Assembly (NCBI GenBank): GCA_016783065.1
Contig: JADHXI010000012.1
Span: forward strand, 1-35,892
Direction of reading: 5' to 3'
DNA from: Desulfobacteraceae bacterium
GTDB taxonomy: Bacteria > Desulfobacterota > DSM-4660 > Desulfatiglandales > Desulfatiglandaceae
Length of the DNA: 35,892 nt
Below are positions 1 through 35,892 of this stretch, in pieces. Under the pieces are notes generated by a model. The model was not told where the DNA came from, did not search any database, and saw nothing but the letters and a program-made list of their open reading frames with translations. The position numbers were made by a program, and so were the translations under genes. The stretch's first letter is position 1. Each line of letters begins with the position of its first letter.

Positions 1-198
1 TACATCGACCGGTTCGATCATCAAAGCCTCTTTTTGCCGGGCAACCTTTGTCTGCATCGCATGATCGTACACACAGGTGGAGCAGTCATAATTATTGTCA
101 CAAAGCTTGTACGAGACGACACCTGCTTCCATCCATACACACTTCTTTTTCCCTGGTGGCACAATCTTCATGGATGTCTTTTTCTCCCTGGTTTTCAT
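1..198 (-). CDS. Small Cys-motif protein, N-terminal fragment
   Basis: The minus-strand frame opens with ATG at 198-196 and stays open for 66 codons to the window edge, so only the N-terminus is seen. A strong Shine-Dalgarno (AAGGAGG) lies 5-11 nt upstream. The visible part is basic for about 19 residues and then has Cys20, Cys33, Cys39 and Cys42 in the pattern C-x12-C-x5-C-x2-C, with the readable core CVWMEAGVVSYKLCD. I recall similar Cys-rich N-termini in deltaproteobacterial proteins, some annotated as GcvH-like, but the part needed to decide is outside the window. The spacing suggests a metal or Fe-S site. Function is not assigned. Confidence 0.6.
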   Translation of the reverse strand, partial: MKTREKKTSMKIVPPGKKKCVWMEAGVVSYKLCDNNYDCSTCVYDHAMQTKVARQKEALMIEPVDV

Positions 199-301
199 TT
201 TTTCCTCCTTGTCTCGCAGGATTCATGTAATGCGTCGCTGCCTCTACAAAGCAAATTCGATGCCAACCGGCCCCCGAGTTGGTAGAAAAGGGGTTAACTT
301 G

Positions 302-319
302 TTTATATAACTATATAAA
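302..319. promoter_or_regulatory. AT-rich inverted repeat upstream of the small Cys-motif gene
   Basis: TTTATATA (302-309) and TATATAAA (312-319) are perfect inverted arms separated by 2 nt, about 105 bp upstream of the minus-strand start at 198. It could be an operator or part of a promoter. No clear -35/-10 pair was found around it. Confidence 0.25.
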
Positions 320-445
320 AACAAACTATTCTTGTTGGAAGGGACGAATGGCAGGATGGATCGAGTGTCTAAAGATTCGGCAAACCTCTTTGAATTCAGG
401 GGGGCAATCCAGGTAACTAGTTGATTTTTTACTGATAATTATGAT

Positions 446-2396: not shown

Positions 2397-2510
2397 TATG
2401 CCCTTACCTCCATGGTTCACGATGAAAGCGTCTTAGTTTGTAACTTCTCCGCAAAATGAGAAGATGGTTTCACCTAAAAGGCGGCAGTTTGGCAACGGCC
2501 AGCTTAGTTC

Positions 2511-2525
2511 GATGTCTTGAACATC
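2511..2525. repeat. Small inverted repeat in the kinase-regulator gap
   Basis: GATGT (2511-2515) and ACATC (2521-2525) flank CTTGA in the 224-bp gap between the kinase stop and the activator start. It is short and could be chance. Confidence 0.2.
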
Positions 2526-2588
2526 TGAACCTTTGAATTTCGGATTTATTGACAAACCTTTTCCATATTGCCGGGCATCTTAAATTGC

Positions 2589-2610
2589 CAAAATCGTGTA
2601 CACAATTTTG
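2589..2610. promoter_or_regulatory. 22-bp near-perfect palindrome behind the sensor kinase gene
   Basis: The half-sites CAAAATCGTGT (2589-2599) and ACACAATTTTG (2600-2610) are complementary except at one pair. It lies 10 bp after the kinase stop and about 190 bp upstream of the activator start. It has the size and symmetry of a dimer-binding operator. The low GC content and lack of a T-run argue against a terminator. Confidence 0.4.
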
Positions 2611-2620
2611 AGGCAGTGAC

Positions 2621-20673: not shown

Positions 20674-20674
20674 G

Positions 20675-20697
20675 CCGGATAAACCCGGTAGATTGAA
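20675..20697 (-). repeat. Reverse-oriented copy of the CCGG intergenic repeat
   Basis: CCGGATAAACCCGG (20675-20688) followed by GATTGAA (20691-20697) is, on the minus strand, TTCAATC then CCGGGTTTATCCGG, closely like 13775-13803. It lies just after the fabF stop. Confidence 0.45.
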
Positions 20698-20804
20698 GCT
20701 TGGTGATTGCCGGTAGTCGCAATAAAATTCCTCAAATTGTAAATATTCATTAAACAATCCTTTGGGTCCAACATCTTTAAAATATGTCATGGAGAATAAA
20801 CCGT

Positions 20805-21233
20805 ATGGATATCGTGCTAGGGTCAGACCACGGGGGGGTTGACCTAAAAGAGGCCTGCAAGGCCCATTTGGAGGGCTCGCCCGATTACAGGGTCACGGAT
20901 TGGGGTGTATTCAGCGTGGATTCGGCCGATTACCCTGAGATAGCCCACCGGGTGGCCCAGGCTGTGGCCAAGGCTGAATTCGATCGGGGGATTTTGATCT
21001 GCGGCACGGGTCTTGGGATGAGTATGGTGGCCAATCGCTACAAGGGGATACGCGCAGCCCTTTGTCACAACCTCTTTACCGCCCGAATGAGCCGGCTCCA
21101 CAATGATGCCAACATATTGGTGATGGGCGGACGGGTCATAGGTGCGGGGCAGGCCTTGGAGATGGTAGATCTCTTTCTGAAGACCCCTTTTGAGGGAGGG
21201 CGTCATCAGCGCAGAGTGGAACAGATCGATTGA
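20805..21233 (+). CDS. rpiB: Ribose 5-phosphate isomerase B
   Basis: This 142-residue RpiB/LacA family protein begins MDIVLGSDHGGVDLKE, has GILICGTGLGMSMVANRYKGIRAALC (phosphate and sugar binding, catalytic region) and NDANILVMGGRVIG. It interconverts ribose 5-phosphate and ribulose 5-phosphate. The ATG at 20805 is preferred over one 21 nt upstream because GGAG lies 10 nt before it and the family starts here. Confidence 0.95.
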   Translation: MDIVLGSDHGGVDLKEACKAHLEGSPDYRVTDWGVFSVDSADYPEIAHRVAQAVAKAEFDRGILICGTGLGMSMVANRYKGIRAALCHNLFTARMSRLHNDANILVMGGRVIGAGQALEMVDLFLKTPFEGGRHQRRVEQID

Positions 21234-21293
21234 GAGCTTTATTGTGACCCGAAATCTTTTCGCTTTTGCCTCAACATTTCTTAGGAGCCATCG

Positions 21294-21740
21294 TTGACCA
21301 GACCCTCCTGGGCCGAATATTTTATGACCATTACCAAGATGGTGGCCAAGCGATCCACCTGTTTGCGGCGTCATGTGGGCGCCATTTTGGTAAAGGACAG
21401 GAGAATATTGGCTACAGGTTATAATGGGGCACCGGCGGGTCTGACCCATTGCCATGAGGCCGGCTGCCTGAGAGAGGACTCCTCTGTTCCTTCCGGTGAA
21501 AGGCATGAACTCTGCCGGGGACTCCATGCAGAGCAGAACGTCATTATACAGGCGGCGTATCACGGGATCCCCATCGCGGATTCTACCCTCTATTGTACCA
21601 ATAAACCCTGTGTAATATGTTCCAAGATGATCATCAACGCAGGGATAAAAAAGATCTGTTGTGACCAGGGCTATGATGACCCGTTGGCCGATCAGATGCT
21701 GGCGGAGGCAGATATTGAGATTGCGAGGTTTACGCCATGA
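21294..21740 (+). CDS. Deoxycytidylate (dCMP) deaminase, ComEB-type
   Basis: The 148-residue zinc deaminase makes dUMP from dCMP for dTMP synthesis. The zinc site is His78-Ala-Glu80 in LHAEQNVI and Cys106-x2-Cys109 in [11 protein letters not shown]; the N-terminal [28 protein letters not shown] is typical of dCMP deaminases rather than cytidine deaminases. The start is TTG at 21294 with AGGAG 7 nt upstream. It overlaps nrdR by 4 nt (ATGA), implying coupled translation of two deoxynucleotide-related genes. Confidence 0.95.
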
Positions 21741-22213
21741 AATGCCCCTATTGTGCGAAGATAGACAATAAGGTGATCGACTCGCGGCTGAGCAAAGACG
21801 GAAGAAGCATCAGAAGAAGACGGGAATGCCTGGGATGCGGGAGAAGATTTACCACTTATGAAAAGCTGGAAGATGTCCTCCCCATGGTGGTGAAGAAGGA
21901 TGGCCGGCGAGAGGCCTTTAACCGGGAGAAGATCACTTCCGGCATTCGCAAGGCCTGCCAGAAAAGACCCATCAGTGTGACGAGGATCGAAGAATTTACC
22001 GACGCCCTAGAGTTCCATTTTCAAGAACTCGGGGCAAGGGAGGTTGACAGTTCAGAAGTGGGGGAAAGAGTAATTAATGAGCTGCGGGCATGGGATGAAG
22101 TGGCCTATGTCCGGTTTGCTTCTGTCTATAGACAGTTTAGGGATATCAATGAATTCATGGCGGAACTGAAAGGAATTCTCAAGTCAAGGCAGGAAAAGGG
22201 GGGCGAGGATTGA
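21737..22213 (+). CDS. nrdR: Transcriptional repressor NrdR
   Basis: A 158-residue regulator with an N-terminal zinc ribbon (Cys3/6 and Cys31/34 in MKCPYC and CLGCGRRF) followed by an ATP-cone domain ([23 protein letters not shown]). NrdR senses ATP/dATP and represses ribonucleotide reductase genes through NrdR boxes. Its start overlaps the dCMP deaminase stop, and rib genes follow, a common arrangement. Confidence 0.97.
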
Positions 22214-22247
22214 TAGGTTTTTGAATTAAAGGGTTCGGGGGTCGGTC

Positions 22248-23354
22248 TTGAACAAAGTGGATTCAAAGTTCATGAGGGAGGCCTTACGACAGGCCAGAAA
22301 AGGCCTTGGGCGTACATCACCCAACCCCGCTGTGGGGGCTGTGATTGTGAGAGAAGGTGAGATTGTGGCCAGGGGATATCATCACAGGGCCGGGCACCCG
22401 CACGCAGAGGTGGAGGCCTTGCGAAAACTGGAGGGGAAGGCCCAAGGGTCTACCCTTTATGTGACTCTGGAGCCATGCAATCATTTTGGGAGAACACCGC
22501 CATGCACCGAGGCCATCCTAAAGAGCGGGATCCAGCGAGTGGTGGTTGGCATGAAGGATCCCAACCCCCAGGTCTCGGGGGGTGGGTGCGGGTTTCTGAA
22601 AAAAAATGGCGTCGAGGTGAGCACCAGTCTCCTGGAACCAGAATGCCGCCGGTTGAATGAAGGCTATTTAAAGTTTGTTGCCCATAAACGACCGTTTGTT
22701 ATGGTCAAATCTGCCCTCACACTGGACGGATGGACCGCCACATCCACAGGAGATTCCAAGTGGATCACCAATGAAAGGTCAAGACAGTTTGTCCATGGAC
22801 TGAGGAATAGGGTGGATGCCTTACTGGTCGGGGTTGGGACGGTGCTTGCAGATGACCCTTCTCTTACGACTCGCCTCAAAGGGGGGCAGGGCAAAGATCC
22901 CGTACGGATTGTCGTTGATACGAATGTAAGGACACCTTTGGATGCCAAGGTCCTGGGTCACAAATCCGATACTCAGACCCTCCTTGTCGCTGGTGCCTAC
23001 CCCCGCCCTGAAATCCGAAAAAAATTCCAAGAAAATGGGGTTTCGATCATTACCTGCCCTCTAAAAGATGGAAGGATTGACTTGGGGGCCTTGATGGATA
23101 TATTGGGAGAACGGTCCTTGACGACCCTCTTGGTGGAGGGGGGTGCCTCTATCATCGGTTCATTGTTGCGGGAGAGGCTGGTTGACAAGTTCCTAATCTT
23201 TACGGCCCCAAAGCTGCTGGGAGGAAACGACGGGGTTCCCATGGCGACGGGTCCTGGAGCGAGGCAAATGGATGATTGCCTTTGCTTGAGGGACCTTGAA
23301 GTGAGGCGCTTTGGTGAAGACATCCTCACTGTTGGGTATCCTGATTATGGGTAG
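22248..23354 (+). CDS. ribD: Bifunctional riboflavin deaminase/reductase
   Basis: The 368-residue protein has an N-terminal deaminase domain with zinc ligands His52 (HAE), Cys77 and Cys86 (EPCNHFGRTPPC), then a reductase domain from about 145 (FVMVKSALTLDGWTA, and LLVEGGASIIGSLL near the end). It performs the second and third steps of riboflavin synthesis. The TTG at 22248 aligns with the normal N-terminus; an ATG at 22272 is the alternative, and neither has a convincing Shine-Dalgarno. No FMN riboswitch was recognised before the gene. Confidence 0.94.
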   Translation: MNKVDSKFMREALRQARKGLGRTSPNPAVGAVIVREGEIVARGYHHRAGHPHAEVEALRKLEGKAQGSTLYVTLEPCNHFGRTPPCTEAILKSGIQRVVVGMKDPNPQVSGGGCGFLKKNGVEVSTSLLEPECRRLNEGYLKFVAHKRPFVMVKSALTLDGWTATSTGDSKWITNERSRQFVHGLRNRVDALLVGVGTVLADDPSLTTRLKGGQGKDPVRIVVDTNVRTPLDAKVLGHKSDTQTLLVAGAYPRPEIRKKFQENGVSIITCPLKDGRIDLGALMDILGERSLTTLLVEGGASIIGSLLRERLVDKFLIFTAPKLLGGNDGVPMATGPGARQMDDCLCLRDLEVRRFGEDILTVGYPDYG

Positions 23355-23411
23355 AGCAGGTATTATTAAATACTATTACGTGATTCGAACTTTGGCTCAT
23401 TTCTAGTTTTT

Positions 23412-23428
23412 CCGGTTATCCGGGTTAG
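23412..23428 (+). repeat. Copy of the CCGG intergenic repeat
   Basis: CCGGTTATCCGGGTTAG repeats the sequence at 13790-13807 with one T missing, in the 89-bp gap between ribD and ribE. The rest of the gap shows no other signal. Confidence 0.45.
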
Positions 23429-23443
23429 CACGAGCAATAACAG

Positions 23444-24106
23444 ATGTTCACCGGTCTGGTCGAAGGGGTTGGCAAAATAAAAAACATCCGTCGCACTCAA
23501 GACGTTATGAGAGTGACCGTTATCCCCCCTTATCAGTTCGAAGACTGCCGACTTGGGGATAGTCTTTGTGTTGATGGTGTGTGTCTGACAGTGACAGATA
23601 TCAAAGAAGGGGCCTATACCATGGACGTTTCCCATGAGTCCATGTTGCGAAGTACCTTGGGGCATCTTCGAGAGGGCAACGAAGTGAATCTGGAGCGGGC
23701 TTTGCGCCCAACGGATCGATTGGGGGGACACTTGGTCTCCGGCCATGTAGACGGGACCGGGAAGATATTGAAAAAAGAGGCAAAACGAGGGTTCTGGTTT
23801 TTGAGGATAGGAATTGACCAACAACTCTCACGATATACCATCGAAAAGGGATCAATAGCAGCGGACGGCATTAGCTTAACCATCAACCGCTGTGAGGATA
23901 GATTTTTTGAAGTGAACATCATACCTCAGACAGTCAAGGAGACCACCCTTTTGAAAAAAAGAGTCGGAGACCTGGTCAACCTGGAGACGGACCTGATTGG
24001 AAAATATGTGGAAAAATTCTTTCTGAGAGACAGGCAAAAACCACAAGAAGACACCAATTCGCGTATCAGTCTTGAGATGCTCTTAGAACAGGGATTTGGT
24101 GATTAA
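23444..24106 (+). CDS. ribE: Riboflavin synthase, alpha chain
   Basis: The 220-residue protein starts MFTGLVEGVGKI as the family does and has two lumazine-binding repeats; VDGVCLTV in the first is echoed by AADGISLTI in the second. It dismutates two lumazines to riboflavin. It follows ribD by 89 nt; ribBA starts 1 nt after its stop. Confidence 0.96.
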   Translation: MFTGLVEGVGKIKNIRRTQDVMRVTVIPPYQFEDCRLGDSLCVDGVCLTVTDIKEGAYTMDVSHESMLRSTLGHLREGNEVNLERALRPTDRLGGHLVSGHVDGTGKILKKEAKRGFWFLRIGIDQQLSRYTIEKGSIAADGISLTINRCEDRFFEVNIIPQTVKETTLLKKRVGDLVNLETDLIGKYVEKFFLRDRQKPQEDTNSRISLEMLLEQGFGD

Positions 24107-24107
24107 T

Positions 24108-25316
24108 ATGGGTATCGCAAGCATTGAAGAAATATTGGAAGATCTGAGAGATGGGAAAATGACAATCCTCGTGGATGATGAGGACCGGGAAAACGAAGGG
24201 GATCTTACCATTGCTGCAGAAAAGGTCACTCCTGAGGCCATCAATTTCATGACCAAATACGGTCGCGGGCTTGTCTGCCTGGCCTTGAGCCCCGAAATCG
24301 TTGAAAGGCTAAAGCTACCGCCGATGGTCTATGATAATCGTTCGCCCTATAAGACCGCCTTTACCACCTCCATTGAGGCACGGAACGGGGTGACAACGGG
24401 TGTATCGGCAGCCGACCGGGCGCATACCGTCTTGACGGCCGTGGCGGACGATGCCAGACCGGAAGACCTTGTTCAGCCTGGGTTCGTTTTTCCATTGCGG
24501 GCCAGAAGGGGCGGGGTCTTATTCAGGACGGGTCAGACCGAGGGCTCTGTTGATCTGGCTCGTCTTGCGGGTTTGAAGCAAGCGGCTGTGATCTGCGGGA
24601 TCATGAAGGAGGACGGCACCATGGCCAGGATGCCGGACCTTGAAAAGTTTAGCGAAAAACATGGACTTAAAATCGCCACCGTGGCCGATGTCATTGCCTA
24701 TCGCATGCGTACGGAGTCCTTTGTTCACAAGGCTGCGGAGACGGTTTTGCCCACCCCATTTGGGGAGTTTACCGCCGTTGCCTTTGCAAACGATATTGAC
24801 GATTATGAACATCTGGCGTTGGTCAAGGGCAAAATTGATTCCAAAAAAGAAATCCTGGTGCGGGTCCATTCCGGGTGTTTGACGGGAGATGTCTTTGGCT
24901 CCCATCGGTGCGATTGCGGTGAACAGCTTAAGAAGGCCATGGCAATTATTACTGAGGAAGGTCTTGGGGTAATTCTTTACTTACAGCAGGAAGGCAGGGG
25001 AATCGGCCTCGCAAACAAATTAAAGGCTTACGCACTGCAGGACAAGGGTCTGGATACGGTTGAGGCGAACGTGGAGTTGGGATTTGGGGCCGATTTGAGG
25101 GATTACGGCGTTGGGGCACAGATTCTGGCTGCCCTGGGTATCAAGAAGATGCGACTGATCACGAACAACCCCAAAAAGATTATCGGCCTTGAAGGTTACG
25201 GGCTCCAGGTGACAGGTAGGGTCCCCCTTGAGTGCGAGCCCAAGCCTGAAAACCGGGAATATCTGTTGACCAAGTGTCAAAAACTGGGGCACCTGATGAA
25301 ACAACTTGAGGGGTAG
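24108..25316 (+). CDS. ribBA: DHBP synthase / GTP cyclohydrolase II fusion
   Basis: This 402-residue bifunctional enzyme feeds both branches of riboflavin synthesis. The N-terminal half is 3,4-dihydroxy-2-butanone-4-phosphate synthase (DDEDRENEGDL acidic loop, TGVSAADRAHTV). The C-terminal half is GTP cyclohydrolase II with the zinc site in CLTGDVFGSHRCDCGEQL and QEGRGIGLANKL. The ATG at 24108, one base after the ribE stop, is preferred to an upstream TTG overlapping ribE. Confidence 0.96.
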   Translation: MGIASIEEILEDLRDGKMTILVDDEDRENEGDLTIAAEKVTPEAINFMTKYGRGLVCLALSPEIVERLKLPPMVYDNRSPYKTAFTTSIEARNGVTTGVSAADRAHTVLTAVADDARPEDLVQPGFVFPLRARRGGVLFRTGQTEGSVDLARLAGLKQAAVICGIMKEDGTMARMPDLEKFSEKHGLKIATVADVIAYRMRTESFVHKAAETVLPTPFGEFTAVAFANDIDDYEHLALVKGKIDSKKEILVRVHSGCLTGDVFGSHRCDCGEQLKKAMAIITEEGLGVILYLQQEGRGIGLANKLKAYALQDKGLDTVEANVELGFGADLRDYGVGAQILAALGIKKMRLITNNPKKIIGLEGYGLQVTGRVPLECEPKPENREYLLTKCQKLGHLMKQLEG

Positions 25317-25382
25317 AGACAGGAATTTGAAACAGGCGAATGCCGTATGGACAATTCAGGTATTTTTTAAAGGGGGGTGCAA

Positions 25383-25850
25383 ATGCCCAATATAGTAGAA
25401 GGACAGCTATCGGCTGAAGGTTTTCGATTTGCGATCATCGTGAGCAGGTTTAATGATTTCATCTGTTCCAGGCTGGCGGAAGGGGCCATGGATGCCCTGA
25501 TGAGGAACGGTGCTGATGACGAAAAACTCTTGCTCGTAAAGGTCCCGGGGGCCTTCGAGATCCCAATCGTGGCAAAGAGGCTTTCCCAGAGCGGTCATTA
25601 CGATGCAATCATCTGTCTGGGTGCCGTTATAAGGGGAGCCACATCACATTTTGAATACGTGGCTGCTGAAGTATCAAAGGGAATCGCCAATGTCGCCCTG
25701 GAGAGCAATATTCCCATAACCTTTGGTATCTTGACCACAGATAACCTGGAGCAGGCCATAGAGAGGGCCGGGTCAAAATCGGGCAACAAGGGTTTTGAGG
25801 CTGCCATGGTAGCCATTGAGATGGTCAATCTCCTAAAGGGATTGGAATAA
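25383..25850 (+). CDS. ribH: 6,7-dimethyl-8-ribityllumazine synthase
   Basis: The 155-residue protein makes the lumazine used by Rib[46 protein letters not shown] (with the catalytic His) and [11 protein letters not shown] are family motifs. AGGGGGG sits 5 nt before the ATG. With ribD, ribE and ribBA it completes riboflavin synthesis apart from the phosphatase step. Confidence 0.97.
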
Positions 25851-25895
25851 CCCGGCCTGGTCCTCAAAAGGTGGGAGTTGTTTGACCTTGCGGAT

Positions 25896-25911
25896 GGAAA
25901 CATAGGTTTCC
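25896..25911. repeat. Small hairpin before nusB
   Basis: GGAAAC (25896-25901) pairs with GTTTCC (25906-25911) over a 4-nt loop, in the 89-bp gap between ribH and nusB. No T-run. Confidence 0.3.
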
Positions 25912-25939
25912 CCAATAATTTATAGATTTAATTAAACGA

Positions 25940-26374
25940 ATGGGCAGAAGACGAAGGGCCCGAGAACTTGCTATTCAGGTTCTTTTTCATTTGGAAGTGA
26001 ACCCCGCCGTCCCGGAGGAGGCGTTTGGTCAGGTCTGTGAAAACTTTGGTGCCAGAAAGTCGATCAGGCCGTTCTCAAGGGAGTTGGTCATGGGTGTCTG
26101 TGAAAAGAGACAGGATCTGGATAGTTTGATCATAAGTGCATCCAAGAACTGGCGTCTGGAACGTATGCCATATGTGGATCGGTCCATACTGAGAATGGCC
26201 ACATTCGAAATCTTGTTCAGGGAAGATATTCCGCCCAAGGTCTCCATCGACGAGGCCGTGGAGATCGGAAAGAGGTTCGGGGCGGAAGACTCCGGCAGTT
26301 TTATAAATGGGATTTTGGACAATATATACAATGCCCTGGTTCAGGATGGCCGGGCAGGGAAGATGGAAGAATAA
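25940..26374 (+). CDS. nusB: Transcription antitermination factor NusB
   Basis: This 144-residue all-helical protein begins MGRRRRARELAIQVLFHLE (RNA-binding arginine-rich start) and has the conserved IDEAVEIGKRFGAEDSGSFINGILDNI segment. NusB binds boxA RNA with S10 for rRNA antitermination. The ribH-nusB order is the common one. No clear Shine-Dalgarno precedes the ATG. Confidence 0.96.
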   Translation: MGRRRRARELAIQVLFHLEVNPAVPEEAFGQVCENFGARKSIRPFSRELVMGVCEKRQDLDSLIISASKNWRLERMPYVDRSILRMATFEILFREDIPPKVSIDEAVEIGKRFGAEDSGSFINGILDNIYNALVQDGRAGKMEE

Positions 26375-26395
26375 TGCGTGGGAGAGTTTCGGACG

Positions 26396-28972
26396 ATGAA
26401 GTATGATCCTCAGATATTGGAATCTAAGTGGCAGGCCTTTTGGGAAAAAGAAGGTTTGTTTAAATCTACTGAAGACCCCTCCAAAGAAAAATACTACCTC
26501 CTGGAGATGTTTCCTTACCCTTCCGGGAGAATCCATATAGGTCACGTGCGCAATTATACCATCGGGGATGTGGTAGCCAGATACATGAGGATGCGCGGAA
26601 AAAATGTTTTGCACCCCATGGGATGGGATGCCTTTGGAATGCCCGCAGAAAACGCGGCCATAGAAAATAACACCCATCCTGCCAAATGGACTTTCGATAA
26701 CATAGCGGCCATGAAGAAACAGCTCAAGAGAATGGGTTTCAGTTACGATTGGGACCGCGAGCTGGCCACATGTGACCCGGCGTATTATCGTTGGGAACAG
26801 CTGGTGTTCCTGAAGATGTATGAGAAGGGCCTGGCCTACAAGAAAAAGACCCACGTCAACTGGTGTGAAAGCTGCCAGAGCGTCCTTGCCAATGAACAGG
26901 TAGAGGATGGCTGCTGCTGGCGCCATACGGACAGAGAAGTGACCATCAAGGAGATGGACAGCTGGTTCTTGAAGATAACGGAGTATGCCGATGAGATCCT
27001 TGATTACTGCCAAAGGCTTCCGGGGTGGCCTGAGCGGGTCCTGACCATGCAAAAAAACTGGATCGGAAAAAGTTATGGCGCGATCATCCGATTCCCCATG
27101 GACGGTTCCGATGAGGTCATCGACACATTCACCACGCGGCAGGATACGGTCTTTGGCGCCACCTTTCTCTGCTTCGCCCCGGAACATCCCCTGGTCAAGG
27201 AGATTGTGAAGGGGTTGCCCCAGGAAAAAAAAGTCACCGACTTTGTCGAGCGGACCCTCAAGATGGACAGTTACATGCGCACGGCGGATTTTACCGCAAA
27301 GGAAGGGGTCTTTAGCGGAAGATACTGCATAAATCCCGTAACAGAGGAGAAGATCCCCATATTTGTGGCCAATTTTGTCCTGTTTGAATATGGAACCGGG
27401 GCGATTATGGCCGTCCCCACCCATGATCAAAGGGATTTTGAATTTGCCAAAAAATATGGTCTCAAACTTCGGGTCGTTATTCAAAATCCGGATGGGAATT
27501 TGGACGAAGAGACAATGGCGGAGGCCTATGTGGGTGAGGGGACCCTGGTCAATTCCGGACCATTCAATGGCCAGCAGAACTTGGCAGCCCTGGATAATAT
27601 CGCCGAATACCTGGAATCGAAAGGCATGGGCCACAAGACCGAGAACTTCAGGATCAGGGACTGGGGTATCTCACGACAGCGTTACTGGGGGGCCCCCATC
27701 CCGGTTATCTACTGTGACAGGTGCGGAACGGTCCCTGTACCTCAAGATGATCTTCCTGTGGTCCTCCCCCTGGATCTGGATATGAGACCCAATGGCGGGT
27801 CTCCGCTCCCATTTGAGCCGTCCTTTTACAAAACCACCTGCCCCGAGTGCAAGGGAGACGCCAGACGGGAAACCGATACCATGGATACCTTTGTGGAATC
27901 CTCCTGGTATTTTGACCGCTACACCTGCCCCGATTATCATGAAGGGCCATTGGATCCAGAGAGGGTGGATTACTGGATGCCCGTGGATCAATACATAGGG
28001 GGGATTGAACACGCTATCCTTCATCTCCTCTATTCCCGTTTTTATACCAGGGTATTGAAAGACTTCGGCTATCTCAAGGTCAGGGAACCCTTTACCAAGC
28101 TGCTGACACAGGGAATGGTCTGTAAAGAGACCCAGGAATGTGAGACGCACGGACTTCTCTACCCCTATGAAGTCAAAGAAGGCCTCTGTGTTCACTGTCA
28201 GACCCCGGTGAAGACCGGGAACACCGTCAAGATGTCCAAGTCCAAGAGAAATGTGGTGGACCCGCAGGACCTGATCGATCAATATGGTGCGGATACGCTC
28301 CGCATGTTCTGCCTGTTCGCCTCTCCGCCTGACAGGGATCTGGAGTGGAGCGACCAGGGGGTTGAGGGTTCATACCGCTTTGTTAATCGACTCTGGCGGT
28401 TGGTCGTTGACCATCTGGAGGGACTGCAGGCGGTTGGTTCCTATGAAGGGGAAGGGGGCTTGTCAGAGCCCCTTGAGGCCCTCCACAGAAAGACCCACCA
28501 GACCATCAAGAAAGTAACCAGTGATATTGAAAATCGCTTTCATTTTAATACGGCCATTGCGGCGATCATGGAACTGGTTAATGAAATCAATCAGTTCTTA
28601 AACAGCAATGAAGAAAAGGATCAAATCGCATGGTCGGTGATTCGGGAGGCGGTGACGTCCGTGGTGGTCTTGCTTTTTCCGGTGGTGCCTCATATTACCG
28701 AGGAGTTGCAGAGCATGCTTGGCCTTGATCAGAGCCTTGTTGAGACCCCGTGGCCTGAGCACAGTGAAGAGGCGTTGAAGGAGCAGAAAAGACTGGTTGT
28801 CCTGCAGGTGAATGGTAAGTTGAGAAGCAAAATAGAGGTCCCTGCTTCCTATGGCAAAGATGAAATCGAGGCCGAGGCCCTGGCAGATGAAAGAATTCAG
28901 CGCTTCACCGAGGGAAAGGCAATAAAGAAAGTCATTGTGGTGCAGAAAAAGTTGGTCAATGTGGTGGTATAA
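26396..28972 (+). CDS. leuS: Leucyl-tRNA synthetase
   Basis: The 858-residue class I synthetase has HIGH at 47-50 (RIHIGHVRN), KMSKS at 612-616, the CP1 editing domain ([14 protein letters not shown] and [20 protein letters not shown]) and zinc-knuckle-like Cys pairs. The ATG at 26396 gives the standard MKYDPQ-x3-KWQ-x2-W start; a GTG 18 nt upstream is the alternative. It follows nusB closely and precedes lptE by one base. Confidence 0.98.
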
Positions 28973-28973
28973 A

Positions 28974-29570
28974 ATGGTCAAAAAAATATCATTCAAATGG
29001 TCAAGAAAAAGACATAACCAAACGATATTAATTGGTTTATCCATTATCATGTGGTTGATTGCCGCAACGGGTTGCGGTTATCATCCCCAGGCCACGGACA
29101 AACCAATGGGTGGTCTCCGGATAGATAGCCTTGCCATCCCTCTTATGGCCAGCCCCTCTTCATCATTGGGTTTTGAAGGTTACTTCACGGAGGTGATCCG
29201 TAAGGAGTTTCTGACCCAGTCAAAAATCCCATTTGCCCCAAAGGGTGAGGCTGCTGCGGTCTTGGTGGGGCATGTCAATAAGATTTGGACTGAACCCATC
29301 GGCTATAGGACCACCTCTGAGACTATCCAGGGGAAGACCTATAATTATGAGATTACCAATTCCCGTTGGCTTATCATCGAACTGGATGCCAAACTGATGG
29401 ACAGGAAAACAGGAAAGATTGTCTGGTCAGTAAACAATATGCGAGAGAAGGCTACCTATAGCGTCAGTTCGGATCCCCTCAAGACCCAATATAACCAAAG
29501 AAGGGCCACAGAAAAAATTGCTAAACTCTTGGCCCAGAGGTTCTATCTGAAGACGATGGAAAGGTTTTAA
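28974..29570 (+). CDS. lptE: LPS assembly lipoprotein LptE
   Basis: This 198-residue protein has a long basic N-terminus, a hydrophobic segment (about 17-31) and a lipoprotein cysteine at 34 in AATGCGYHP, the typical LptE GCGY start. With LptD it inserts lipopolysaccharide in the outer membrane, so the host is a diderm. It starts 1 nt after the leuS stop and overlaps holA by one base, the conserved leuS-lptE-holA order. Confidence 0.9.
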   Translation: MVKKISFKWSRKRHNQTILIGLSIIMWLIAATGCGYHPQATDKPMGGLRIDSLAIPLMASPSSSLGFEGYFTEVIRKEFLTQSKIPFAPKGEAAAVLVGHVNKIWTEPIGYRTTSETIQGKTYNYEITNSRWLIIELDAKLMDRKTGKIVWSVNNMREKATYSVSSDPLKTQYNQRRATEKIAKLLAQRFYLKTMERF

Positions 29571-30580
29571 TGCCGGGGGATCTGCAACCTGAAAAAGTCC
29601 TGGAACAACTTGAAAAGGGGCAATTGTTCCCGTTTTATCTCTTCTATGGGGAGAATGAATTCTTACTTGAAAAACTGTTAAACGCGGTTCGTCAAGACCT
29701 TATCCCGGAGGAGGCAAGGGATTTTAACCTCCAGGTTTATTATGGGGGAAAAGAAGAAAAAGTTCACCCGGCGGAGATTATTGATACAGCAAGAACCCTT
29801 CCCTTTATGACCCACAAAAGGCTCGTTATCGTTCGAAGGACTGACAATATCCCCACTGCAGCCCTTGAGAGTTTTATCCCATATCTTGAAGACCCGGTAG
29901 AATCCACCTGTTTATTGTTTGTCTCTTCCAAGACAGATTTCAGAAAGGCCTTTTACAAAAAGATCAGGGAGTTGGGAAGGAGCGTCAATTTCAAGAAGCT
30001 ATATGACAAGCAGGTGTTGCCATGGATTCTCAAAATGGCAAAGGACCTGGGGTTGACCATAGAAAAAGAGGCCTGTGCCTACCTCCAGCAGATTGTAGGA
30101 AACCGGCTCATGGATCTTTCCAACGAATTGGAAAAACTCTATGTCCGTTATGGAGAAACCCCTGTGGGTCTTGAAGAAACAAAGGCCCTGGCGATCCACA
30201 GCCGTACCTATACCATCTTCGAACTGATAGATCAGATATCATTCAAGCAGTGTGCCGAGTCAATATCCGTGCTGGAAAGATATCTGGAAATGGGAGACGC
30301 CCAGTCATCCTTGGGGCTCATGGGAATGATTATTCGCCAGATGCGCATATTGTGGCAGACCAAATCTGTCGTGGAGGGGGGTGGACATGTCTCCCAGGTG
30401 GCAGGAAAGGCCGGGGTGCCAAATTTTCTGGTGAATAAGCTAGTCCGACAGGCAAGGACTTGGAGCGTGAATGACCTTGAACGGGCGTTTGACACACTAT
30501 ACCGGGCTGATGGTCTTCTAAAATCCGGTTCTCAGCCGCACCTGGTCCTTGAGAACGTGGTGATATCCCTCTGCAGATGA
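29570..30580 (+). CDS. holA: DNA polymerase III delta subunit
   Basis: The 336-residue clamp-loader subunit has the N-terminal FPFYLFYGENEFLLEKLL and ARTLPFMTHKRLVIVRR segments and a C-terminal collar region (GLMGMIIRQMRILWQ). It opens the sliding clamp in the clamp-loader complex. It shares a base with the lptE stop (TAATG) and converges on rpsT. Confidence 0.95.
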   Translation: MPGDLQPEKVLEQLEKGQLFPFYLFYGENEFLLEKLLNAVRQDLIPEEARDFNLQVYYGGKEEKVHPAEIIDTARTLPFMTHKRLVIVRRTDNIPTAALESFIPYLEDPVESTCLLFVSSKTDFRKAFYKKIRELGRSVNFKKLYDKQVLPWILKMAKDLGLTIEKEACAYLQQIVGNRLMDLSNELEKLYVRYGETPVGLEETKALAIHSRTYTIFELIDQISFKQCAESISVLERYLEMGDAQSSLGLMGMIIRQMRILWQTKSVVEGGGHVSQVAGKAGVPNFLVNKLVRQARTWSVNDLERAFDTLYRADGLLKSGSQPHLVLENVVISLCR

Positions 30581-30587
30581 TAGGTTT

Positions 30588-30857
30588 TCAGGATGTCCTG
30601 AGCCCGTTGATTTGGCGTGCTAAGCGGGAAATTCTTCGAGAGGCTTGTCTTTTGTGGATTGCGCCTTTGGATACCGTCTTCTGGATCAAAGAGGTAGCGT
30701 CTGAAAGTTTTTTTTCGGCCTGATCCGGCGAGTTGTCGGCAATAGCAGCTCTGACTTCCTTTATAGCTTTTTTGACTCTGCTCTTATAGGACTTATTTCT
30801 TATTCTCTTGACTTCGTCTTGTTTCGCCCTCTTGAGGGCTGATTTATGGGTCGCCAA
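30588..30857 (-). CDS. rpsT: Ribosomal protein bS20
   Basis: This 89-residue basic helical protein begins MATHKSALKRAKQDEVKRIRN, as bS20 does. The start codon is TTG (30857-30855) with an AGGAGG ribosome site 7 nt upstream. E. coli rpsT also uses UUG, where it matters for translational autoregulation by S20; the same may hold here. The gene is convergent with holA (7-bp gap), and its promoter region is taken up by the inverted-repeat element at 30887-31028. Confidence 0.97.
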   Translation of the reverse strand: MATHKSALKRAKQDEVKRIRNKSYKSRVKKAIKEVRAAIADNSPDQAEKKLSDATSLIQKTVSKGAIHKRQASRRISRLARQINGLRTS

Positions 30858-30886
30858 ACTTAGACCTCCTTAAAAGATTTATTTAG

Positions 30887-31028
30887 GAGGCTGTCCGAGA
30901 ATGAGAGATTTTTTGCAAGGTCAAGGAAGGCGAAGATTTTAACCGCAAGAATACATTGAAGTATTTTGAGGATTCAAATCTGAGCCTGACGCGGAGATTG
31001 CGGAAAATAGCCATTCTCGGACAGCCTC
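30887..31028. mobile_element. MITE-like element with 17-bp terminal inverted repeats
   Basis: GAGGCTGTCCGAGAATG (30887-30903) and its perfect complement (31012-31028) bound a 142-bp segment with no ORF. Short non-coding length and perfect ends fit a non-autonomous transposon (MITE). No clear target duplication was seen in the flanks. It lies 29 bp upstream of rpsT and about 95 bp upstream of murJ, so it may supply or disturb promoters of either gene. Confidence 0.65.
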
Positions 31029-31123
31029 ATAGGCTCCGCAAGACTCAAAAACGGAAGTTCCTGCGTTGTTAGCATGGAACCGTGTCTTTTACATAGATTG
31101 CTTCTGCATGTCAAGAGTTTTCT

Positions 31124-32740
31124 GTGCCGCGTTCGATATCAGCGAAATCCGAGCATAATAATGTCAGCCGTGCAGCAGGGGTGGTTGGTTTTTTCACCCT
31201 TATCAGCCGTGTCCTGGGTCTTGTCCGTGACATGGTTTTGGCCCGTTTTTTTGGGACAGGCATGGCGGCGGATGCCTTTTTCGTGGCATTTCGCATCCCT
31301 AATCTCCTAAGACGCCTTTTTGCAGAAGGCTCTCTCACCATTGCCTTTATTCCAGTCTTTACGGAGTATTTGACCCAAAAGAGCAGAAGAGAGGCGTTTG
31401 AGCTGGCACGGACCATCCTGACGCTTCTTGCCCTGACCGTTGCCGTGGTGGCCCTCCTTGGGGTTCTTTTCTCGCCATGGATCGTGAGGATACAGGCCTT
31501 TGGGTTTGGGGGATCGGGAGATAAATACCAATTAACCGTCCTCCTGACGCGTATTACCTTTCCTTATATCTTCTTTATAAGTCTGGTGGCCTTTTTTATG
31601 GGGGTCCTGAACTCCCTGCGTCGTTTCGGAGCACCCGCGGCCGCCCCCATTTTTCTAAACGTCGGGATCATCGGAGCTGCCTATTTCATCTCACCTTACT
31701 TTCCCGAGCCCATCGTAGGGATCGCCCTTGGTGTTCTGATCGGGGGGATCCTCCAGGTTGGCCTTCAGATCCCCTGGGTTCTCAAGGAAGGGCTCAAGGT
31801 GTTCCCCCTCTGGCAGCCGCACCACCCGGCGGTGAGGAGGATCGGGCTCCTCATGCTCCCCGCCATTGTGGGCTCCGCGGTCTATCAGTTTAACCAATTC
31901 ATGGGGACGCTTCTGGCCACGTTTCTTGTTGAGGGGAGTGTCTCATGGCTTTACTATGCGGACCGTCTTGTCCAATTCCCCCTGGGAATTTTTGCCATAG
32001 CCATTAGCACGGCAGCCCTTCCTTCCCTTTCTACCCAGGCCGCAAAAAAAGACCTGGGTGAGTTTCAAGACACCCTGAGCTACAGCCTTCGTCTGGTTTT
32101 CTTTATCACCTTACCCTGTGCGGTGGGATTGATTGTCTTGGGGGCACCCATCCTAAGAGTGCTTTTTGAAAGGGGTGCTTTCGATATGCACTCCACCCTG
32201 ATGACAAATAAGGCCCTATTTTTCTATTCCCTCGGCCTCCTTGCCTTTTCCGGAATCCGGGTGATGGTGGCTGCCTTTTATGCGCTTCAGGACACCAAGA
32301 CACCCGTAAAGGTGGCGATAGTTGCCGTCGCGGCCAATCTGATCTTTAGTCTGGCCCTCATGGGTCCTTTGAAACATGCCGGGCTTGCGCTTGCCTTGTC
32401 TCTGGCGTCATCTCTGCAATTTTGTCTCTTGATCATTTTCTTGAACAGAAAGATTAACACAGGAGAGTTGAGGCCGGTCCTTGTCTCGGCATCAAAGTCT
32501 GCCTTGTCTGCGGCTGTTATGGGGGCAGGAATCTATTGTCTGCAGTCCAGTTTGCTGACCACCCATCCGGGTGGGGGATTCTGGGGAGTGACAATAAATC
32601 TGGGTGGCCTGATCCTGAGCGGCATTGCCATTTATTTTCTGGTTGCCAGACTGATCGGGTGCCGTGAATTGAATTCGCTCCGGGATATGTTTCACCCCCG
32701 ATCCAAGACAGCGAAAAAACAGATTTCCTCCCGGGAGTAG
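31124..32740 (+). CDS. murJ: Lipid II flippase MurJ
   Basis: The 538-residue polytopic membrane protein (about 14 hydrophobic segments) is of the MOP superfamily. The N-terminal motif SRAAGVVGFFTLISRVLGLVRDMVLARFFG and LRRLFAEGSLTIAFIPVF are diagnostic. It flips lipid II across the inner membrane for peptidoglycan synthesis. The GTG start at 31124 has only AAGAG upstream; the true start could be a little downstream, as conserved sequence begins at about residue 14. Confidence 0.95.
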   Translation: MPRSISAKSEHNNVSRAAGVVGFFTLISRVLGLVRDMVLARFFGTGMAADAFFVAFRIPNLLRRLFAEGSLTIAFIPVFTEYLTQKSRREAFELARTILTLLALTVAVVALLGVLFSPWIVRIQAFGFGGSGDKYQLTVLLTRITFPYIFFISLVAFFMGVLNSLRRFGAPAAAPIFLNVGIIGAAYFISPYFPEPIVGIALGVLIGGILQVGLQIPWVLKEGLKVFPLWQPHHPAVRRIGLLMLPAIVGSAVYQFNQFMGTLLATFLVEGSVSWLYYADRLVQFPLGIFAIAISTAALPSLSTQAAKKDLGEFQDTLSYSLRLVFFITLPCAVGLIVLGAPILRVLFERGAFDMHSTLMTNKALFFYSLGLLAFSGIRVMVAAFYALQDTKTPVKVAIVAVAANLIFSLALMGPLKHAGLALALSLASSLQFCLLIIFLNRKINTGELRPVLVSASKSALSAAVMGAGIYCLQSSLLTTHPGGGFWGVTINLGGLILSGIAIYFLVARLIGCRELNSLRDMFHPRSKTAKKQISSRE

Positions 32741-32963: not shown

Positions 32964-32992
32964 TTAACAATTAAAAAAATGTAATGTATAAT
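32964..32992 (+). promoter_or_regulatory. Promoter of the HTH regulator gene
   Basis: TTAACA (32964-32969), a 17-nt spacer and TATAAT (32987-32992) form a near-consensus sigma-70 promoter about 60 bp before the ATG at 33060. Confidence 0.65.
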
Positions 32993-33059: not shown

Positions 33060-33884
33060 ATGCCAAATCCTGTTGCTGAAAATTTTATTGATACAAAAGA
33101 AGTCCTTTTAAACCCAGGTATTTCAAGGGCAACGCTTAATAATTACATCAAAATGGAAATTATTCCGCGGCCTATTGTCCAAAAGCCAATGACTCCTGGG
33201 AGCGGGGCAAAAAAAATCGGGTGCTTCCCCCAGGCTGTAATAGCGCGGATAGAACAGGTCATGCTCTTAAAACGAGAAGGCCATTCTATGGAAAACATTG
33301 TCAATCGACTGAGGGGGGTGCCAGTTGATGAGCAACCGGCCGAAAGCGGACTGGAGACAACCCTGCATCCCGGAGATGGTTGGGTAGTTGAACAAAAAAG
33401 GATCGGAGTCAAGGACGAGAGCTTAAAGTTTACCATTGAGAATGTGAATTTGCCGGCCTATTTGCTGGATTATAGTTTTCGGGTGCAATGGATAAACGAC
33501 CGGGCGGATGATGAAGTATTTGGCAAAACAATCAATTTGGCAAAAAAGGGGTTTTCGGGGAATGTTTTTGAGCTGTTTTTCCAGTGGGAATTCCATAAAC
33601 GGGTAAGGAATTGGAAGGATATGATTGCCTTTCATCTCTCCGTTGCCAAGATAAAATACGCCAAAAGCTGGATGGAGAATCTTTATCCGGGGATTTCAAG
33701 AGATGAAATCGCCGTGCTGCAGGAAATTTATGACAATGTCGCGCCTTTTGAGAGACAAACAATTAATGACATTCCCATCAGCCTTTTGACGGGTGATGGA
33801 AGCACAAAGGGGTACAAGGTCTACACACTTTTCGCCAGAGAAGGAATCCTTTTTATGTATCGCCGCGTGGACTTTCTTGGATGA
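33060..33884 (+). CDS. HTH regulator with PAS-like sensor region
   Basis: A 274-residue protein of unassigned family. Residues 8-75 look like a MerR-type winged helix (DTKEVLLNPGISRATLNNYIK then FPQAVIARIEQVMLLKREGHSMENI). A linker follows, then a segment that looks like PAS or MmyB-type ligand binding (LPAYLLDYSFRVQWINDRADDEVFG, about 130-155) running to an alpha-rich C-terminus. No Shine-Dalgarno is visible, so the message may be nearly leaderless or the start may differ. The boxes upstream suggest autoregulation. It may control the downstream PilZ gene (130-bp gap). Role and ligand are unknown. Confidence 0.7.
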   Translation: MPNPVAENFIDTKEVLLNPGISRATLNNYIKMEIIPRPIVQKPMTPGSGAKKIGCFPQAVIARIEQVMLLKREGHSMENIVNRLRGVPVDEQPAESGLETTLHPGDGWVVEQKRIGVKDESLKFTIENVNLPAYLLDYSFRVQWINDRADDEVFGKTINLAKKGFSGNVFELFFQWEFHKRVRNWKDMIAFHLSVAKIKYAKSWMENLYPGISRDEIAVLQEIYDNVAPFERQTINDIPISLLTGDGSTKGYKVYTLFAREGILFMYRRVDFLG

Positions 33885-34014: not shown

Positions 34015-35892
34015 ATGAACAGAATGATGCCGGTGGAGGTTCCATCAAACGACTGGGTGAGTGGCACCATCTTATCCTGGAAAGAGAGAGGGCTCCAATC
34101 TCGTTTTTCCAGCCATCGTGATTTTACCGTCGATCTTGAGGATTCAAAGCGTATTGACCGGGAAACCCTCGTCAATATCCTTAACCATCTCCACTTTACA
34201 AATGGATCCGTCAGGGCGATTCTATGGAATGCCTCCGGCAGAGACAGGGTTTTTGTGAACGCGAAACCACAACCCTGTCTTGGAAAAAAACTGGCTTGCC
34301 GTTTTTTTGATGGAACGGGGCTGGATTTTGAGAGGACGAATTATCAATTTCTCCATCTCTTGATCGATGATGGAAGACGTATGATCGTGACGTCACCCAG
34401 CCTGAAAACGCAAGACAGCGAATCCTTTACCGTTGAGTTGCCTGAAATTGGCCATGTGGTGGGGGAAAGATGGACAAGACGATATGCCCCCCGGGAGGTG
34501 ACCGTTGAAGTAGACCAGGGTGCCTTTGAAGCAACCGGAGAGTTGTTGGATTTCAGCCCCATGGGGTTTTGTATCAGGGTAACGGCAAAGGATCACTCAT
34601 CCCGTTATTGGTTCAGTTCAGAAGGACTTGTCACTGTTCGCATCAGAAATCAGGAAGAGGTTCTCTTTTCGGGTGGTTGTCGGTGCATTCGAGAAGGGGA
34701 TGGACCTCAAGAAGGGGAGATTGTGGTGGTCCCAGCCCGTGAAGACCTCAGAGTCTTCCCTAGAAGAAAGATCCGTAATCCTAGGCAGCGATTGCTGCCT
34801 CCGCCATATGTCGTCTTTGATCATCCATTTTGTAATAAAAGAGTCAAATTAGATGTTTCGGACATCTCCACATCCGGTTTTTCGGTGCATGAAAAGGCAC
34901 GGGAAGGATACTTGATCCAAGGCATGGTCATTCCGAAATTGAAAATCAATTTTTCGGGTGGCTTGGAGATCGAATGTATTGCCCAAGTGCTTTATCGCGC
35001 AAAAGAGGATGAAAAGACCGACCGTTACGGTCTCTCTATTCTGGATATGGACGTCAATTCATACAGCCGGTTGGCACACATCTTAACCAACGCCTTGGAT
35101 CCGCATTTGTTTGTTTCATGCGATGTTGATATGGATGCGCTGTTGGAGTTCTTTTTTAAGACAGGATTTATCTATCCCAAAAAATATGATCTCATTTGTT
35201 CCCAGCGCGAGGGGTTTGAGGAAACTTACAGAAAACTCTATCAGGAGAGTCCGGAGATTGCCAAGCATTTTACCTATGAGAAAAACGGTGAAATCTATGG
35301 ACATATCTCAATGATCAGGGCCTATGAAAAGGCGTGGCTGATACAGCACCACGCCGCCACAACCATTGAAAACAGGCGGGCCGGCTTTATTGTACTCAAA
35401 GGAATCATGCACTACCTGAATGACATGCATCGGCTTCCATCTGCAAAAATGGACTATGTGATGAGTTATTTTCGCCCGGACAACAGGTTTCCAAACAGGG
35501 TTTTTGGAGAATTTTCAAGAGTTCAAGAAAACCCCCGGATTTGTTCCATGGACCTCTTCTCATATCTGCCTTATACAAGCCTCTCTGTAAGTGCCGGGTT
35601 GCCGGATGGGTGGTCACTGGGCATATGTTCCGCACGGGATATGCGGGGATTAAACGGCTTCTACGGTGATCGCTCTGGGGGCCTGTTTCTTGATGTTCTG
35701 AGCCTCGGGCCCAAAAAACACGTATCCGAATCCCTTGAGGATACCTGTGCAAAGCTGGGTTTTTTTCGAAAATCCAGAATCTATTCCTTAACCAATCAGG
35801 GGAAACTGAATGCCGTTTTGATCGTTGATCAGTCAGATCTGGGTTTGAATCTCTCGGAACTGTTGAACTCTATCAAGGTCATGATCACCAAT
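34015..35892 (+). CDS. Double-PilZ protein with acyltransferase-like C-terminus (partial)
   Basis: The frame is open from ATG 34015 (AAGGGG 6 nt upstream) to the window end, 626 codons with no stop. Two PilZ-type motif pairs are visible: Arg156-x3-Arg160 with Asp179-x-Ser-x2-Gly, and Arg250-x3-Arg254 with Asp283-x-Ser285-x2-Gly288, so it probably binds cyclic di-GMP. From about 365 to 560 the sequence (EIYGHISMIRAYEKAWLIQH and onward) resembles GNAT or N-acyltransferase-type folds. No signal peptide or membrane helix is visible. The N-terminal 150 residues may be a further degenerate domain. Function is unassigned; cyclic-di-GMP-controlled acyl transfer is an inference. Confidence 0.7.
   Translation, partial: MNRMMPVEVPSNDWVSGTILSWKERGLQSRFSSHRDFTVDLEDSKRIDRETLVNILNHLHFTNGSVRAILWNASGRDRVFVNAKPQPCLGKKLACRFFDGTGLDFERTNYQFLHLLIDDGRRMIVTSPSLKTQDSESFTVELPEIGHVVGERWTRRYAPREVTVEVDQGAFEATGELLDFSPMGFCIRVTAKDHSSRYWFSSEGLVTVRIRNQEEVLFSGGCRCIREGDGPQEGEIVVVPAREDLRVFPRRKIRNPRQRLLPPPYVVFDHPFCNKRVKLDVSDISTSGFSVHEKAREGYLIQGMVIPKLKINFSGGLEIECIAQVLYRAKEDEKTDRYGLSILDMDVNSYSRLAHILTNALDPHLFVSCDVDMDALLEFFFKTGFIYPKKYDLICSQREGFEETYRKLYQESPEIAKHFTYEKNGEIYGHISMIRAYEKAWLIQHHAATTIENRRAGFIVLKGIMHYLNDMHRLPSAKMDYVMSYFRPDNRFPNRVFGEFSRVQENPRICSMDLFSYLPYTSLSVSAGLPDGWSLGICSARDMRGLNGFYGDRSGGLFLDVLSLGPKKHVSESLEDTCAKLGFFRKSRIYSLTNQGKLNAVLIVDQSDLGLNLSELLNSIKVMITN

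Follow-up and report, generated by a model that had tools for sequence, protein, structure and literature searches.

The studied stretch of DNA (hereafter the window) comprises 35,892 nucleotides of a Desulfobacteraceae bacterium. Its last gene encodes a protein in which two PilZ domains are followed by a predicted double GNAT region (Table 1). We call it the PilZ-GNAT protein. The window is the exact extent of the contig and the reading frame stays open to base 35892, the last one of the contig, which truncates the gene. In relatives with a closed gene the frame mostly spans 675 to 770 residues (and 977 in a kinase fusion described below), therefore approximately 70 residues are missing from the window protein. 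The anatomy of the protein was worked out on a complete relative, L032, which is 57% identical to the window protein according to tblastn and 54% identical in the alignment. The residue numbers coincide with those of the window protein at the features that were read back.

The upstream neighbour is a MerR-like gene. The gap between it and the PilZ-GNAT gene is 130 bp, and no terminator-like match was found there on the + strand. The window copy of the MerR-like gene has no Pfam match, and its family was assigned through relatives. The conserved C-terminal domain of the MerR-like protein has no sequence matches in PDB at E up to 10; it may resemble a fatty-acid-binding PAS-like domain. Elsewhere, the window includes a separate pair of a PAS-GAF histidine kinase and a sigma-54 response regulator (1047–4711, minus strand). 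Ordinary chromosomal genes occupy positions 19432–32740: ketoacyl synthase, RibD, RibBA, leucyl-tRNA synthetase, DNA polymerase III delta, S20 (minus strand), and MurJ.

Table 1. Features of the PilZ-GNAT gene and its upstream region, in window coordinates
Feature	Positions	Strand	Residues	Basis and remarks
Sigma-70-like promoter match upstream of the MerR-like gene	32964..32992	+		Consensus scan only, 11/12 positions
MerR-like upstream neighbour	33060..33884	+		Relatives match MerR helix-turn-helix models; same neighbour in 8/52 loci, window included
PilZ-PilZ-double-GNAT gene	34015..35892	+	626 of ~700	One open frame, 626 codons, stop absent
YcgR-N-like domain	34147..34455	+	45–147	Structural comparison; pairs with PilZ-1, VCA0042/YcgR-type
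PilZ-1	34456..34743	+	148–243	Fold matches; Pfam PilZ on fused relative
RxxxR of PilZ-1 (RWTRR)	34468..34482	+	R152, R156	Kept in 61/61 relatives
DxSxxG of PilZ-1 (DFSPMG)	34549..34566	+		Sequence read-back
RRKIRNPR at the start of PilZ-2	34762..34785	+		RRKIR at 34762–34776; the conserved part is RNPR at 34774–34785, not RxxxR
PilZ-2	34765..35100	+	251–362	Pfam PilZ; fold match 4xrn_B
DxSxxG of PilZ-2 (DISTSG)	34861..34878	+		Motif in 43/61 relatives, G288 in 61/61
First GNAT half	35104..35574	+	364–520	Fold and conservation; RRAGF (35374–35388) and YFRPDNRFPNRVFGEF (35467–35514) inside
Second GNAT half	35575..35892	+		Fold and conservation; conserved GLNLSELLN inside; cut by contig end

The domain order was determined using structure prediction, comparison with PDB folds, and Pfam. 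It includes a YcgR-N-like domain (approximately residues 45–147), PilZ-1 (approximately 149–243), PilZ-2 (approximately 251–365), and a double GNAT from residue 364 to the end. The full-length model of L032 was obtained with AlphaFold2 from 18 sequences and has a mean pLDDT of 67. In this model PilZ-1 matches PA0012 (8u0i; residues 149..242, Z 10.1, rmsd 2.4, 82 aligned) and 5xly_B (153..243, Z 10.1), and PilZ-2 matches 4xrn_B (251..359, Z 12.7, rmsd 2.3, 100 aligned). The structure prediction thus bears out the two PilZ barrels that had been proposed in the initial annotation, with Z of about 10 for PilZ-1 and 12.7 for PilZ-2 to solved PilZ domains. Pfam agrees: PF07238 matches residues 257–357 of the window protein, i.e., PilZ-2, with E 1.4e-7 (32.2 bits against a cut-off of 22.5), and residues 151–231 of the fused relative, i.e., PilZ-1, with E 1.6e-9. 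At E up to 1, the PilZ model is found in 17 of the 18 aligned members.

The N-terminal module, consisting of the YcgR-N-like domain and PilZ-1, is similar to VCA0042 (1yln; residues 43..243, Z 9.7, rmsd 9.7, 187 aligned) and to 3kyg_A (43..242, Z 9.7, rmsd 12.4, 188 aligned). As the high rmsd indicates, the two domains differ in their relative position from those in 1yln and 3kyg_A. Receptors of the YcgR / VCA0042 / MrkH type have one PilZ domain and are not known to carry an enzyme. They likewise carry a YcgR-N-like plus PilZ module at the N-terminus, whereas the PilZ-GNAT protein adds a second PilZ domain and then the double GNAT.

Both RxxxR/DxSxxG pairs that the initial annotation reported in one chain are literally present in the window protein, as the read-back confirmed. 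Their conservation was assessed in 61 non-redundant relatives that span both PilZ domains (five of 66 were dropped since they did not span both). The RxxxR motif of PilZ-1 is family-wide, and the full motif set of this domain is present in 24/61 relatives by a strict definition and in 41/61 by a relaxed one. The second pair is intact in the window protein only as far as its own letters go: the first arginine of RxxxR, R250, is found in 13/61 relatives, against 58/61 for R254 and 54/61 for R257, and the full motif set of PilZ-2 occurs in 11/61. Hence two canonical c-di-GMP sites are rejected as a trait of the family, and PilZ-1, with its RxxxR found throughout, is the likelier c-di-GMP site, while PilZ-2 is non-canonical. 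Motif and fold together make PilZ-1 the putative site of c-di-GMP binding. As the DxSxxG motif of PilZ-1 is often degenerate and the first arginine of PilZ-2 is mostly missing, some members may not bind c-di-GMP.

Taken alone, such motifs are weak evidence for PilZ domains, because shuffled sequences of the window protein yield them as well: at least one motif pair appeared in 1335 of 20000 shuffles and two pairs with distinct DxSxxG sites in 46 of 20000. A chance match can nevertheless be discarded, since fold and Pfam evidence concur on PilZ.

The region downstream of the PilZ domains, which the initial annotation compared with an N-acyltransferase, has a GNAT-like fold according to structure prediction, and more exactly it is a double GNAT. 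The C-terminal 335 residues were modelled alone, and the best model (pLDDT 71, pTM 0.76) matches HisAT (9emd) with Z 13.2, rmsd 4.5, and 252 of 335 residues aligned. It also matches VipF (7wx7; Z 12.0, rmsd 5.0, 246 aligned) and N-myristoyltransferases (NMT1; Z about 9.8, rmsd about 7). The top rows of a Foldseek search are likewise double GNATs: VipF 6wqb (E 7.4e-9), 2wpw, 7q3a, and 5kgh. The second GNAT half is also recovered in the full-length model of L032 (residues 505–691 against 7wx7, Z 8.5, rmsd 4.7, 134 aligned). The mean pLDDT of the five models of the C-terminal part is 71, 63, 52, 51, and 50; the block of the first half has pLDDT 53–76 in the part model and falls below 50 over much of residues 381–479 in the full-length model. 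The first GNAT half is therefore the least secure part of the anatomy, as a single best model exceeds pLDDT 70 and the confidence in this half is moderate.

The same double-GNAT arrangement over approximately 320 residues is seen in HisAT/NAT16, N-myristoyltransferase, VipF, the tandem GNAT of the clavulanate pathway (2wpw), and MAB_4324. The identity between these enzymes and the C-terminal part of the PilZ-GNAT protein is approximately 7–13% in the aligned rows, and a common family model was not found. Pfam GNAT models have no matches at E up to 1 either in the window protein or in its relatives, and no NCBIfam model matches members of the family; consequently, an assignment to any of the named GNAT or N-acyltransferase families is unsupported. 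The same applies to a homologue of solved structure identified by sequence, for which the only candidates were sorting nexins with E 1.4 and 1.6.

Within the protein, the first GNAT half is conserved most strongly. Its mean majority-residue share is 0.66, compared with 0.58 for PilZ-2, 0.53 for the second half, 0.47 for PilZ-1, and 0.45 for the YcgR-N-like domain, and 31 of its 157 columns are conserved at 90% or more. Conserved stretches of the GNAT part include GFIYPxKY, W441/H445, RxG457, and YFRPENxFPxRVFGGF, where W441 (60/60 relatives), H445 (59/60), and G457 (56/60) are nearly invariant. The acyl-CoA loop motif of GNAT enzymes is Q/R-x-x-G-x-G/A. A partial likeness to it is visible in the first half, with K/R at position 454 in 44/60 relatives, R455 in 39/60, and G457 as above. 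No such motif was seen in the second half, and no catalytic residue could be identified in the GNAT part.

Matches to the PilZ-GNAT protein were found in 29 of 61 near genomes, its own included. Of the 297 genomes in the phylum sample, 32 have matches to the C-terminal part, a number that includes the genome of the window, two remote matches, and one remnant of 26 residues. The remnant (G187:C5:8045-8122) corresponds to the C-terminus of the PilZ-GNAT protein and lies just before a kinase gene; it may be what is left of a gene that decayed next to a kinase gene that stayed intact. Relatives on 17 contigs belong to MAGs labelled as Desulfobacteraceae, Syntrophaceae, Smithella, and other Delta- or Proteobacteria. 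Two remote relatives, L099 (966 aa; 5216–8116; 139 bits) and L100 (792 aa; 5955–8333; 128 bits), have the same double GNAT and RxxxR/DxSxxG pairs separated by approximately 220 residues; L099 bears a further Pfam PilZ domain at residues 23–129.

Next to the PilZ-GNAT gene, relatives commonly encode a hybrid histidine kinase. Fifty-two neighbourhoods were collected and 51 were counted; L116 was left out, as the simple gene picker had lost its central ORF. At least 900 bp of DNA downstream of the PilZ-GNAT gene is available in 44 of the 51 loci. The kinase is near in 34 of these 44 and lies downstream on the same strand within 1.3 kb in 31. The kinase count is a lower bound, because one of the ten loci that lack a kinase according to the gene picker (G337) has it according to a separate kinase search. 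Gaps in 32 gene pairs range from -7 to 1181 bp; they do not exceed 70 bp in 14 pairs and are negative, i.e., the genes overlap, in eight. The true gaps may be larger because the first possible start codon was taken.

The two genes also occur together across the phylum sample: both were found in 25 genomes, the PilZ-GNAT gene without the kinase in four, the kinase without the PilZ-GNAT gene in seven, and neither in 261 (Fisher p 5e-26, with no correction for descent). Only strong matches were counted here; the remote PilZ-GNAT matches of G061 and G135, the remnant of G187, and kinase-sensor matches above approximately E 1e-60 were left out. Distances between PilZ-GNAT proteins correlate with distances between kinases (Mantel r 0.85, reached in 0 of 2000 permutations), a correlation that shared descent alone could give.

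The N-terminal domain of the kinase has weak matches to V4R in 15 of 17 members and to Arabinose_bd in 14 of 17, both below the curated cut-offs in the member shown in full. In sequence it also weakly resembles H-NOX proteins (E 0.013 to 0.07). In the alignment this domain is followed by two hydrophobic stretches, and its position ahead of them suggests that the sensor is probably cytoplasmic. In the only kinase scanned in full (L063), GAF, PAS, HisKA, HATPase, and receiver domains were identified. Residues C145, H168, and C171 of the sensor are invariant in this kinase (L063:11218-14121) and its relatives, and a further cysteine at about position 179 is mostly present. The spacing of these residues may resemble that of the zinc site of Shewanella H-NOX.

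The initial annotation had directed attention to the neighbourhood beyond the window. The relatives repaid this with the downstream kinase described above; in the window the contig stops before such a gene could be seen, and its own genome (72% complete) gave no match to the sensor domain. A genome of the same genus, G001, has the kinase 188 bp downstream (L050).

A class I SAM methyltransferase, identified with Pfam, is present nearby in 24 of the 35 loci whose downstream DNA extends for at least 5 kb, and in 26 of 51 overall. It is often on the opposite strand and may be on either side of the PilZ-GNAT gene. According to clustering, with part of the neighbours annotated, those other than the kinase, the methyltransferase, and the MerR-like gene vary between lineages, and envelope genes may be among them.

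In one relative the PilZ-GNAT protein and a kinase are a single chain. The protein L067:8604-11468 (the same locus as L031) has the order PilZ-PilZ-double GNAT-HisKA-HATPase. Only about 35 residues separate the GNAT end (691) from HisKA (726), so the fusion is without the kinase's own sensor. At 12 of 35 conserved GNAT positions its residue is changed. The median share of these positions kept in the family is 97%, and only the remote L098 and L100 fall below L067 in this respect. The fold can thus serve without the conserved GNAT residues in this protein. The fusion is a single case from a draft genome, and the same genome also holds a normal PilZ-GNAT copy (L013). Judging from sequence, L067 is the strongest hint that the PilZ-GNAT protein and the kinase may act on each other. 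It also hints, more strongly than any other observation, that a non-enzymatic GNAT may act with the kinase.

The closest published parallel is PixB (MXAN_2604) of Myxococcus xanthus. According to its description, an acetyltransferase (AT) domain of the GNAT family follows two PilZ domains in PixB, c-di-GMP binding was shown in vitro, and development requires the PilZ and AT domains alike; the gene may share an operon with two downstream genes (PMC8316039). The domain order described for PixB is therefore the same as in the window protein. The initial annotation regarded this order as uncommon, which is only partly right, because PixB shares it and matches were found in 29/61 near and 32/297 phylum-sample genomes. 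The spacing of PilZ motifs differs: in the described PixB it is approximately 210 residues (mutated R121 and R331) and in the window protein it is 98 (R152–R250). Both PilZ domains of PixB are described as having RXXXR and lacking the serine of the second motif, which is present in the window protein. The spacing of approximately 220 residues in L099 and L100 is nearer to that reported for PixB, and in our reading these proteins bridge to the PixB layout.

Another c-di-GMP effector with a related enzyme part is HfsK of Caulobacter crescentus, a member of the double-GNAT (FemX-like) N-acyltransferase family involved in holdfast biogenesis. Its c-di-GMP binding is attributed to the C-terminal tail and R112 and not to a PilZ domain (PMC5362036). 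HfsK and the PilZ-GNAT family thus both tie a double GNAT to c-di-GMP, and HfsK, as described, does so without PilZ. PixB and HfsK were the couplings of c-di-GMP with GNAT found by our search, to which most subscription journals were closed; within that scope no paper on the PilZ-GNAT family was found. A partner kinase sets this family apart from both, as far as seen in these sources. The PilZ-PilZ-GNAT order and its c-di-GMP binding are already known from the cited description of PixB. The compact layout in many relatives, the linked hybrid histidine kinase, the frequent methyltransferase, and the one kinase fusion are new.

Control of acyl transfer by c-di-GMP, for which PixB is a published parallel, is the most likely reading of the PilZ-GNAT protein. 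The product of the window gene is probably a c-di-GMP sensor that uses its PilZ domains to steer an attached acyl-transferring enzyme. The interpretation given in the initial annotation is thus likely to be right in outline, judging from the motifs and models.

In a more specific form, we lean, with some reserve, towards a PixB-type cytoplasmic c-di-GMP effector enzyme: a PilZ-gated double-GNAT acyltransferase that feeds the phosphorelay of the downstream hybrid kinase. The second messenger would dock on PilZ-1, where both motif and fold are observed, and the signal would be relayed via the non-canonical PilZ-2 to the acyltransferase. The first GNAT half probably binds acyl-CoA and contains the active site, as it does in HisAT and N-myristoyltransferase, and the second half may aid acceptor binding. 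The enzyme would work with the hybrid histidine kinase whose gene follows immediately in most relatives for which enough DNA is available. Given the observed linkage of the two genes, c-di-GMP-controlled acylation would feed the phosphorelay, if the flow runs in this direction, whether its acceptor is the kinase or a small molecule sensed by it.

The GNAT part could alternatively be no longer an enzyme. It would then act as a c-di-GMP-dependent interaction or ligand-binding module that switches the partner kinase, with acyl-CoA perhaps sensed and not used. The tight pairing of the two genes, a GNAT signature that is unrecognisable by sequence, and the direct fusion to HisKA-HATPase with its decayed GNAT positions are all consistent with such a module. 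We nevertheless consider it rather unlikely, since most free-standing members keep the very positions that are lost in the fusion, and the first GNAT half is conserved better than any other part of the protein. Moreover, G457, in the stretch that faces the usual CoA loop, is retained in nearly all relatives, and the genome with the fusion has a normal copy too.

A special form of the preferred acyltransferase reading is that the protein is a c-di-GMP-gated signal synthase. The GNAT would make an N-acylated small molecule, which the linked methyltransferase may complete and the V4R/H-NOX-like sensor of the kinase would receive, much as synthase and receptor genes are paired in quorum sensing. 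The methyltransferase is near in most loci with sufficient downstream DNA, the matches of the kinase N-terminal domain fit a sensor of this kind, and the nearest folds, HisAT and NMT, can accept long acyl chains (PMC12219266). On the other hand, the methyltransferase has no fixed side relative to the gene and is frequently encoded on the other strand, the kinase sensor shows only weak matches (in the member shown in full, V4R and Arabinose_bd are below the curated cut-offs), and the sensor domain is probably cytoplasmic; we therefore regard this form as improbable. The corresponding three-part unit, in which an acylated and possibly methylated molecule made by the double-GNAT synthase is read by the linked kinase, so that a chemical signal would carry the c-di-GMP level on to a phosphorelay, is likewise a speculation to which we give little credence. 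In such a unit, the L067 fusion would be a shortcut, with the enzyme turned into the input domain of the kinase. A PilZ-linked enzyme that serves ordinary metabolism or the building of the envelope, with a kinase that only regulates transcription of the locus, has a precedent in the holdfast role described for HfsK, but it is very improbable given how the remaining neighbours, annotated in part, differ among lineages.

Under the preferred reading of a PilZ-gated acyltransferase, the PilZ-GNAT family has a PixB-like coupling in a compact form together with a dedicated sensor kinase, which would provide a concrete lead to the substrate and the output. If it is true that the kinase reads the product of the enzyme, this would be a new route from c-di-GMP to two-component signalling.
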